Source: Peptostreptococcus canis (GTDB lineage: Bacteria > Bacillota > Clostridia > Peptostreptococcales > Peptostreptococcaceae). From it: a stretch of DNA of 32,265 bases. The stretch spans positions 1-32,265 of the forward strand of contig NZ_JABGBW010000014.1 in the NCBI RefSeq assembly GCF_014229965.1. Reading direction: 5' to 3'. Numbering within the stretch: position 1 is the first letter of the stretch; every line of letters begins with the position of its first letter. Made by a program: the position numbers and the translations under genes. The notes beneath the pieces are model-generated. The model did not search any database, was not told the origin of the DNA, and saw only the letters and a program-made list of their open reading frames with translations. This document shows, in pieces, positions 16,628 to 18,908 of this stretch.

Positions 16628-16658
16628 ATTATTGTAATGAAAAAATGTGGAGGAATTT

Positions 16659-18020
16659 ATGGGGTTAAAAGAGTTTGAATTTATAGAAGCTGCCACTTCA
16701 ATACTCGGAGAGCAAAGACCTGCATTAGAGGTTATCGAGGAAGAGTTAGTGAAGTTTTTTGGTTCAATTCCACTAAAAGACAATGAACTGATTGCAGTAA
16801 CATCCCGAATTAAATCGGAAAGTAGCTTAAAAGAAAAGATTATTAGAAACAGATATTTAGTTGATTATTCAAATCCCAAAGATTTGCTATCAGATATACC
16901 TGATTTAATTGGTATTAGAATGGAATGCAAATTTATAAAAGAGGAAGAGGAAATTTTTTTGAAGTTGAAAAATTTTTTCAAATGTACAGATGATAGAAAA
17001 TATTTTTATTCCAAGAGTAATAAAAATATTAGATTATATTTATATGATAGGCAACCTCTTAGACAGAAAAATGGATTTGAAATTTATAAAATCGATGGTG
17101 AATACAAATTTTTGAATAGAAGAATAAAATTTGAATTGCAAATAAAATCTCTTGTAAATGTTTTCTGGAGTGAAATAGAACATAAAATAATTTATAAAAA
17201 TACTACATATTTGCTGGAAGATAAGTTTTTAAAGGATATGATGAGTTCAATAAAAAATAATCTTACTATGATAGATGATCAATTACTTAATATTTACAAC
17301 AATTTTAAACCGGATAATAATGTTGTTACAAATGTAAATAGAGATGAAATTGAAAAACTGTTTTCTAAATTTTTATATGATTCAATTACCAGAAAAATGG
17401 AAGAAAAATTGGCATTTTCGATTGACTTTAAAAAACCATGTAAAACAATTTTAAAGTATTCTTTAAATAAATATGACGATTCAATAGAAGGACTCAGTAG
17501 GTTTTTAACAGAAGAATATAGAAAGATAGGAAATTTTATTGAAAAAGATATAGATTTTAATTCTGAAATAATTCTTGAAAGAGAAATAAATTTTGACGAT
17601 GAATTTTCTAATAATGTTGCAGAACTATTTTTAAAAAAGATGAATTCAGAAGTCCCATGGAATATATTTTTTAGAGTGTTATTTGAGTTGGAACCTGAGA
17701 ATGATACAGAAGATTTTATGAATTTTATCAGTTTTTTCAAAAAGGCTCTTATTTCAGAAGAAAGTATATTTAATACTGTAGATAAATATGGTGAGTATAG
17801 TAATATAATAATAGATGATTTATATGATTGTATTTTTAAGATGTTGAGTAAAGTTGGTAAAATAGATATATTTTTTGATCATAATTTAAAAAAAATTAAT
17901 AGACTTGCATCAGAAGGTCTTGAATATGTATGCTATGAATTTGATACTTATTTTGATTATATGGAGCAAAAAAGAATTATATCAAAAACGATAACAGATA
18001 GTTTAATAAAAATTTTCTAA
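16659..18020 (+). CDS. RelA/SpoT-domain nucleotidyltransferase-like protein with long C-terminal extension
   Basis: The start is ATG 16659, five bases after GGAGG (16649-16653); a GTG at 16647 overlaps that site. The protein has 453 residues. The first ~200 match the (p)ppGpp synthetase fold: SRIKSESSLKEK (49-60) with ATP-binding basic residues, DLIGIR (82-87) with the Mg-binding Asp, FELQIK (158-163) with the catalytic-type Glu, and WSEIEHK (170-176). The guanine-binding loop, normally NGYxSxH, reads NGFEIYK (138-144), so the Tyr is Phe and the His is lost. Residues ~205-453 are acidic, probably helical, with no domain I recognise. Small alarmone synthetases are usually ~200-250 residues. 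No HD hydrolase motif is seen. It could make or bind a guanine nucleotide; activity is uncertain. The next gene follows after 12 bp. Confidence 0.75.
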   Translation: MGLKEFEFIEAATSILGEQRPALEVIEEELVKFFGSIPLKDNELIAVTSRIKSESSLKEKIIRNRYLVDYSNPKDLLSDIPDLIGIRMECKFIKEEEEIFLKLKNFFKCTDDRKYFYSKSNKNIRLYLYDRQPLRQKNGFEIYKIDGEYKFLNRRIKFELQIKSLVNVFWSEIEHKIIYKNTTYLLEDKFLKDMMSSIKNNLTMIDDQLLNIYNNFKPDNNVVTNVNRDEIEKLFSKFLYDSITRKMEEKLAFSIDFKKPCKTILKYSLNKYDDSIEGLSRFLTEEYRKIGNFIEKDIDFNSEIILEREINFDDEFSNNVAELFLKKMNSEVPWNIFFRVLFELEPENDTEDFMNFISFFKKALISEESIFNTVDKYGEYSNIIIDDLYDCIFKMLSKVGKIDIFFDHNLKKINRLASEGLEYVCYEFDTYFDYMEQKRIISKTITDSLIKIF

Positions 18021-18032
18021 AGGAGGTGTACT

Positions 18033-18908
18033 ATGGATAATAATTTATCCTACCTTAGAGTTATTTTAACGGAAGAAAATAATTACTCATTGATGTATCT
18101 ACAAAAAGAGATGGATTCTGAAATAATTACTCAAGATGTACAGGCAATGCAAATTGATGACTTTAAAAAAATAATATCATATTTTGCAAAGAGAGGACTT
18201 AAAAAAATAAAATTTGTAGGAGGAGAACCTCTTCTATATAAAGGATTAGAAGAACTTATTGAATTTTCAGGTTCTTTAGGAATAGATGAAATAGGTATTA
18301 CTACAAATGGAATTGGTTTGGGCACCAGAATTTTAGAACTTAAAAAACTGGGTCTTACCAATGTGAATATTTCATTAGATTCATTAAAAGAGTATAAATA
18401 TCAAGCTTTGACCAATGGTGGAAACTTAAAAGAAGTTTTTATTTCTATTGATGCCTGTCAAGCAGCTGGAATTAAGTTGAAAATAAATTGTGTTGCGATT
18501 AAAGATTTCAATGATGATGAGCTTATTGATTTTATGAAACTGACAATAAACAATGATATTGATATGAGATTGATAGAGCTATTGCCGTATGGAATCGATA
18601 AAAAAGTATTTGAAAGAGGATATATGGATTTAAAGGAATTTATTGATAATACTGAAGGTATATATGAAGATTCCGTTGATGATCTGAGTGTTTCAGAATA
18701 TTTTAAAATATATGAGGCTGTTGGAAGAATAGGAATAATTACCACATCAAGCAGAGAATTTAATGAAGATTTAAGAAGGATTAATATAAGTAATAGAGGA
18801 TACTTAAATGTTGGTCCAATGCAGAAAAATGAATATTTTATAAAAGACATTATCGATGATGAGGAAAAATTAGATGATTTATTTTATAAAATAACAGCTA
18901 AATTATAA
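18033..18908 (+). CDS. MoaA-like radical SAM-fold protein lacking all cluster cysteines
   Basis: The 291-residue protein follows MoaA (GTP 3',8-cyclase) along most of its length: YLRV (7-10), FVGGEPLL (61-68, SAM-binding type), ITTNG (89-93), VNISLDSL (111-118), KINCVAIKDFNDDE (150-163), RLIELLPYG (179-187), RRINISNRGYLNV (248-260). The radical SAM CxxxCxxC is replaced: LTEENNYSLMYL puts N16, L20 and L23 at the cysteine positions. The C-terminal cluster cysteines align with N244, L247 and G261. Only two cysteines remain (C142, C153), both elsewhere, and the MoaA C-terminal GG is absent. It therefore cannot carry the normal clusters and is probably a binding or regulatory protein. The reading frame is intact with an AAAGGAGGTG site, so it is not an obvious pseudogene. 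No other molybdopterin gene is nearby. Confidence 0.8.
   Translation: MDNNLSYLRVILTEENNYSLMYLQKEMDSEIITQDVQAMQIDDFKKIISYFAKRGLKKIKFVGGEPLLYKGLEELIEFSGSLGIDEIGITTNGIGLGTRILELKKLGLTNVNISLDSLKEYKYQALTNGGNLKEVFISIDACQAAGIKLKINCVAIKDFNDDELIDFMKLTINNDIDMRLIELLPYGIDKKVFERGYMDLKEFIDNTEGIYEDSVDDLSVSEYFKIYEAVGRIGIITTSSREFNEDLRRINISNRGYLNVGPMQKNEYFIKDIIDDEEKLDDLFYKITAKL

Follow-up and report, generated by a model that had tools for sequence, protein, structure and literature searches.

What does a MoaA-type protein do once the residues that hold its iron-sulfur clusters are gone? An open reading frame in Peptostreptococcus canis (assembly GCF_014229965.1) raises this question, since its product resembles GTP 3',8-cyclase (MoaA) but has none of the six cluster cysteines. 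The window, that is, the whole stretch of DNA that was analyzed, comprises 32,265 nucleotides (positions 1 to 32,265 of contig NZ_JABGBW010000014.1). On its + strand, a glycogen set is followed by a gene for a RelA/SpoT-domain protein, the MoaA-like ORF and a Na/Pi-cotransporter-like gene, where the names other than RelA/SpoT-domain and MoaA-like are our reading of the ORFs (Table 1). A preliminary description of this DNA, made from its letters and reading frames, had called the frame intact, and it is indeed open, with an ATG start behind AGGAGG. The profile search proposed there returned PF04055 (E 5.9e-22) and PF06463 (E 4.9e-9; 36.7 bits, just below the cut-off of 37.4), and the MoaA family TIGR02666 was matched with E 6.1e-56 at 189.8 bits, short of its cut-off of 284.05. 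Both Pfam domains are matched at E 0.001 by all nine members of the genus clade described below, and among proteins of solved structure S. aureus MoaA is the closest in sequence (E 6.1e-25). No molybdenum cofactor (Moco) riboswitch or other known RNA reached its gathering score in the window, and a promoter and terminator scan around the RelA/SpoT-domain and MoaA-like genes was uninformative, with 21 promoter-like sites against 22.5 expected and 0 terminators.

Table 1. Coordinates of the MoaA-like gene, its upstream neighbour and altered MoaA relatives. Positions without a locus handle refer to the window.
Feature	Position	Strand	Description	Basis
MoaA-like gene without iron-sulfur ligands	18033-18908	+	291 aa, open, ATG start	PF04055, PF06463, TIGR02666; MoaA fold
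AGGAGG ribosome-binding site of the MoaA-like gene	18021-18026	+	Immediately follows the upstream stop codon	Read directly
Codons 16-23, former CxxxCxxC site	18078-18101	+	Now N16, L20, L23; varies within the genus	S. aureus MoaA alignment and family alignment
Codons 244-261, former C-terminal cluster site	18762-18815	+	Now N244, L247, G261; G261 in 9/9	Same alignments
Codons 241-271, former cluster-II region	18753-18845	+	18/31 positions genus-invariant	
RelA/SpoT-domain gene, likely operon partner	16647-18020	+	457 aa; 12 bp 5' of the MoaA-like gene	PF04607, E 3.4e-13; model
Second MoaA copies of g11	L054:816-1661, L055:3595-4455, L056:3837-4676, L057:2547-3386, L058:3585-4433			
Tail-less six-cysteine MoaA-like proteins	L049-L053, L068, L069, L064:3637-4593, L138:8792		L049-L053 303 aa (L049 302 aa)	

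Alignment with S. aureus MoaA places N16, L20, L23, N244, L247 and G261 at the positions of C24, C28, C31, C261, C264 and C278, respectively, and so bears out the six replacements that the preliminary description had read by eye. The motifs that it had listed as conserved are likewise present: GGEP, TTN, NISLDS and the NDDE region. Among the 61 rows of a family alignment, none of the nine from the genus clade has a cysteine in any of the six columns, and 46 of the 52 rows outside it have all six; the other six outside rows are five short copies without the first three cysteines and one row reading CCCFSC. Since no congener restores a single cysteine, the loss is common to the clade and is neither a strain quirk nor a sequencing error. 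Within the genus, the former ligand positions are occupied by Asn or Ser (16), Leu, Val, Phe or Pro (20), Leu, Lys or Ser (23), Asn, Lys, Arg or Glu (244), Leu or Ile (247) and Gly (261). In total, the window protein has two cysteines and its orthologues have one to three, which is not enough to ligate the two MoaA clusters through cysteine. The C-terminal Gly-Gly tail, which MoaA needs for catalysis, is absent from all nine proteins and present in 39 of the 52 other rows, and the nine all have Asn in place of Arg268 (S. aureus numbering). Neither change figured in the preliminary description, nor did the upstream RelA/SpoT-domain gene or the absence of MoaC from several genomes, both described below. 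One orthologue (G005, L036:6807-7694) is unique in having GGNP for GGEP and a single cysteine.

Some of the substitutes, namely Asn, Ser, Lys and Glu, could in principle bind metal, so that a cluster might be held by non-cysteine ligands or by bridging within a dimer. We consider this extremely unlikely, because positions 16, 20, 23 and 244 vary in the genus, positions 247 and 261 offer only Leu or Ile and Gly, and cysteines are so scarce. It is near certain that both clusters are absent from the MoaA-like protein, and we have very little doubt that radical chemistry is absent too: with the ligands missing, the protein would be expected neither to cleave SAM nor to produce 3',8-cH2GTP.

The fold has outlived the clusters. 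A structure model, computed from an alignment of 21 window and locus translations, all of them unchanged, has a pLDDT of 80.5 and a pTM of 0.82, with low confidence at both former cluster loops. The four best PDB matches found by Foldseek are MoaA chains (2fb2 and 1tv7; E 7.9e-18 to 5.9e-16), followed by viperin, and TM scores of 0.77-0.82 on the query to 1tv7/2fb2 indicate a MoaA fold with barrel and C-terminal domain. The best structural match of the model is thus a radical SAM barrel, on which the preliminary description had made its reading depend. We also considered a viperin-like defence protein and rejected it, as the PADLOC pVip profile scores 62 bits against 190 bits for the MoaA profile, CxxxCxxC is missing and the fold match is MoaA.

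Conservation of the interior was assessed in two ways. First, 58 alignment columns reach a conservation of 97% or more among the 39 Gly-Gly-tailed rows, and 25 of these are unchanged in all nine genus proteins. The kept residues include R9 (S. aureus R17), Y22 (Y30), GG.P, T90 (T102), S114 (S126), N152 (N165), R179 (R192) and E182; the losses comprise the six cysteines, the tail, R251 (S. aureus R268), T62 (T73), K259 and others. Second, we followed 17 non-cysteine pocket positions, which, with their SAM- and GTP-binding roles, we take to be those of the S. aureus MoaA papers of 2004 and 2006. Eleven of the 17 are unchanged in every orthologue (equivalents of R17, Y30, K69, G74, G75, P77, T102, S126, N165, R192 and R266), the equivalents of E76 and K163 are kept in eight of nine, and that of R71 is Lys in seven and Arg in two. 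Three positions are altered in all nine: T73 to Val, M197 to Leu and R268 to Asn. The last is one of three arginines in the Arg17/266/268 mutant named in the title of PDB entry 2fb2.

According to PMC5352715, both MoaA clusters are essential, and the second binds GTP, holding the guanine; affinity for GTP may therefore be gone in the MoaA-like protein. The region that formerly held this cluster has acquired residues of its own. Between positions 241 and 271, R241, R248, N251, S253, N254, R255, Y257, N259, G261, Q264, N266, Y268 and F269 are shared by all nine proteins and seldom or never occur in canonical rows. Because 20 of the 261 segments of 31 residues (241-271 included) are conserved equally or more, this conservation is suggestive only. 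It could mark the remodelled C-terminal site as the active site of a new enzyme that carries out non-radical chemistry on a nucleotide, with R241, R248, N251, R255, Y257, N259, Q264, N266, Y268 and F269 as the residues in point. No catalytic motif is recognised, however, and no neighbouring gene obviously supplies or uses a product, and we regard such an enzyme as distinctly unlikely. Overall, we lean slightly towards the view that the MoaA-like protein has retained a small ligand of nucleotide type.

The descent of the protein was examined in two trees. The more careful one was built from 54 of the 61 rows, leaving out five short g11 rows, two long-branched rows and the ligand columns. Here the nine MoaA-like proteins form a single clade (support 100/100), and a branch with 100/100 support separates this clade and C. 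difficile-type MoaA from the subfamily of the genus's ordinary MoaA. The nearest group to the genus clade consists of G030 and G080, with a support of only 83/73. A quick tree of all 61 rows recovers the same clade in the same subfamily. The stem of the clade measures 1.25 (careful tree) or 1.32 (quick tree) changes per site, and the sequences point to a burst of change on this stem with constraint afterwards.

Constraint is also seen in the substitution rates. In 35 of 36 pairs the synonymous sites have reached or approached saturation, with omega values of 0.06-0.18 where computable; the single clearly unsaturated pair (G002 and G007) has a dN of 0.033, a dS of 0.59 and an omega of 0.057. 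For comparison, omega is 0.05-0.10 in three pairs of closely related ordinary MoaA. Across the genus, 113 of the 291 positions of the MoaA-like protein are invariant, and the gene is, as judged from these comparisons, under purifying selection. The long stem, as a phase of fast change, is what one might expect of a decaying pseudogene, and missing ligands could in principle reflect an assembly error; both are refuted by nine intact genes out of nine, by the low omega and the invariant positions, and by the absence of the ligands from all copies. The finding accords with the earlier proposal that selection kept the fold without radical chemistry. Radical-SAM homology, lost catalytic ligands and purifying selection together make the protein a pseudoenzyme, for which a binding, sensing or structural role, as suggested at the outset, can fairly be inferred.

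Does this pseudoenzyme still belong to molybdenum cofactor synthesis? Each of the nine Peptostreptococcus genomes examined has one orthologue without inner stops; apart from the window's own (100%), these share 66-76% identity with the window protein. In addition, four of the genomes (G001, G002, G005 and G007) encode a second MoaA of the ordinary kind, about 30% identical, in which the six cysteines and Gly-Gly are present. The loci of these ordinary copies (L037-L040) also contain moaC, genes that we read as xanthine-dehydrogenase-like and, as tested in L037, a MoCF_biosynth protein. The ordinary MoaA is of the other subfamily and was likely acquired separately. MoaC occurs in exactly the same four genomes; neither MoaC nor ordinary MoaA was found in the other five, the window's own included, and a MoeA_N domain in none of the nine. 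In those five genomes, then, the MoaA-like protein cannot serve Moco synthesis. Its homology to MoaA and the company of ordinary MoaA and MoaC in four genomes could still be read as a retained role in that pathway, perhaps that of an accessory MoaA or of a dominant-negative one, but given the five genomes that lack both partners and the missing MoeA_N domain such a role is very unlikely. As to occurrence beyond these genomes, a scan of genome contigs with two short peptide patterns yielded 24 loci, seven from Peptostreptococcus and 17 from other family members; since it rests on these patterns, other cluster-free forms could be missed. TIGR02666 is matched in 221 of 299 genomes of a phylum sample, and among the matches listed there are no weak ones, so that this survey is silent on cluster-free MoaA elsewhere.

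If not the Moco pathway, the gene neighbourhood may hint at a partner. The RelA/SpoT-domain gene lies directly 5' of the MoaA-like gene in all nine genomes; the gap is 5-16 bp except in one genome, where it is 124 bp (start codons chosen by us). A Na/Pi-cotransporter-like gene is found on the 3' side equally regularly (9/9), and also near moaA in several other genera; adjacency alone thus fails to single out the upstream gene. Apart from these two, the neighbours vary over the genus.

The RelA/SpoT-domain protein was modelled with a pLDDT of 78 and a pTM of 0.50. Its N-terminal domain is best matched to synthetases of the RelP/RelQ type, and the model would thus liken it to these small alarmone synthetases, from which the protein differs by an added, all-helical C-terminal half of about 260 residues and by NGFEIY in place of GYRSLH/GYRSYH. 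The former motif occurs in all 15 RelA/SpoT-domain rows of alignment A3, and the latter in the three solved relatives compared; the motifs of the protein are thus only partly canonical. Eight of the nine genomes encode two further RelA_SpoT-domain proteins, one long and Rel-sized and one RelQ-sized, and G006 has the long one only, which makes the neighbour an extra, diverged member. PADLOC contains no match for this family of about 455 aa, and to our knowledge a RelA/SpoT-domain protein bordering moa clusters is undescribed.

Orthologues of the neighbour are present in 35 of 71 family genomes (E 1e-20). By hand count, a MoaA gene of the subfamily lies within about 5 kb of the RelA/SpoT gene in 28 of these 35; one genome has a distance of about 12 kb, and in the remaining six the RelA/SpoT gene lies elsewhere. 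In C. difficile the RelA/SpoT gene is followed by mobA, YbjQ-like, moaB-like, moaA, moaC and MOSC (the small-gene names are our own reading). The RelA/SpoT gene thus borders the moa cluster there, as in C. difficile-type relatives, and the Peptostreptococcus pair looks like a cluster remnant. Outside the family, no MoaA-like gene was seen around the RelA/SpoT gene in any of the ten loci examined, over stretches of 4.8-16 kb. The adjacency is hence ruled out as a general rule, and these loci, together with the six family genomes, indicate that the RelA/SpoT protein does not require the partner.

Alterations of MoaA are not confined to Peptostreptococcus. In g11, another genus of the family, five of six genomes encode an additional protein derived from MoaA (279-286 aa), which is intact in all five loci examined. 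Like the genus proteins it descends from MoaA and has lost the first cluster (CxxxCxxC loop); unlike them it has also lost GGEP, keeps the C-terminal three cysteines, adjoins xdhC and yqeB in 5/5 loci and falls in a separate clade. These copies represent a second, independent loss of radical chemistry, affecting the first cluster only. In other members the Gly-Gly tail is gone and the six cysteines are kept: the genera g14 (five loci, with one row, L051, reading CCCFSC) and g9 (two loci), and the genomes G080/G081. No moaC was seen in the examined stretch of these nine tail-less loci, and the proteins are possibly further steps of repurposing. G080 and G081 keep the pair of RelA/SpoT and MoaA genes in genomes without moaC. 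Another MoaA occurs in the same genomes for g11, g14 and g9 and none was seen in G080 and G081; the RelA/SpoT-domain gene was not found in g14 and g9. Taken together, the changes in g11, g14, g9 and G080/G081 mean that MoaA has been altered several times in the family.

Two further loci, L065:3351-4310 (G009) and L086:3376-4335 (G083), encode a MoaA of the same subfamily with six cysteines and Gly-Gly and have no moaC beside it. MoaC is absent from the whole genome of G009 and of the congeneric G031, so that the MoaA of G009 may have another use.

Based on these observations, we tentatively propose that the MoaA-like protein is a former radical-SAM enzyme kept as a non-radical, guanine-nucleotide-binding partner of the RelA/SpoT-domain protein. 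The proposal is anchored in what the data provide directly, namely fold, ligand loss in nine of nine, descent, selection, gene pairing and the absence of MoaC from five of nine genomes; the steps that connect them are more conjectural. The ancestor would have been a working GTP 3',8-cyclase of the C. difficile type. The Peptostreptococcus line would have lost the ancestral Moco cluster, with moaA staying beside the bordering RelA/SpoT-domain gene. Both 4Fe-4S clusters and the Gly-Gly tail may then have disappeared, in this presumed order of events, before the altered form was fixed under purifying selection. A nucleotide, with GTP or a (p)ppGpp-like relative as first candidates, might be bound by R9, K58, K60 (Arg in two orthologues), R179 and R249 together with the remodelled C-terminal site, and the protein could act as a non-catalytic partner or sensor towards the RelA/SpoT-domain protein encoded upstream, in a presumably regulatory role.

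The same pairing of genes in nine of nine genomes would be expected if the MoaA-like protein were a non-catalytic scaffold, its fold serving only as a surface for protein-protein interaction with the RelA/SpoT-domain protein or some other partner and binding no small ligand; for such a module, the disappearance of both clusters, R268, T73, M197 and the Gly-Gly tail would pose no difficulty. What is hard to explain without a ligand is that R9, Y22, K58, T90, S114, N152, R179 and R249, polar residues at positions lining the SAM and GTP pockets of MoaA, are invariant in 9/9, and we therefore find a ligand-free scaffold doubtful. In a more specific version of the nucleotide-binding partner, cluster-free MoaA would be a regulatory subunit that senses GTP or (p)ppGpp through the former substrate pocket and tunes an alarmone-type synthetase, the RelA/SpoT-domain protein encoded upstream; this is a speculative and rather unlikely extension.

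How does the protein compare with known systems? With MoaA itself (TIGR02666; 1tv7/1tv8/2fb3) it shares homology over nearly the full length, barrel and C-terminal domain, GGEP, TTN, NISLDS and 11 of 17 pocket residues, and it departs from MoaA in the absence of CxxxCxxC, CxxCx13C and Gly-Gly, in the exchange of R268 for Asn, and in a score of 190 bits against the cut-off of 284. By its name, NCBIfam family TIGR04347 ('pseudo-SAM/SPASM') likewise covers radical-SAM-like proteins that have lost the cluster; it belongs to another subfamily (SPASM), and the MoaA-like protein reaches 50 bits against its cut-off of 525. As far as we know, TIGR04347 proteins are not derived from MoaA, and we know of no earlier pseudoenzyme case in the MoaA lineage. 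A search of the open-access literature, considering the best-ranked matches only, gave no description of a cluster-free MoaA. Proteins with a radical-SAM fold and no cluster are thus, going by that family name, an already known kind, of which the MoaA-lineage pseudoenzyme is a new variety.

For genome annotation, PF04055 as the only evidence would credit these bacteria with a step of Moco synthesis that is beyond the ability of the MoaA-like protein. For the family, the genus provides a clean natural example in which a radical-SAM enzyme with two clusters was stripped of the ligands for its chemistry and kept for another use. The working type persists in C. difficile and related bacteria, and intermediate forms, tail-less or with one cluster lost, are found in other family genera. 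What a MoaA fold is used for without iron and sulfur thereby becomes a directly testable question and, if the regulatory version of the proposal is true, a cofactor-making radical enzyme would have been turned into a regulator of an alarmone-type synthetase.
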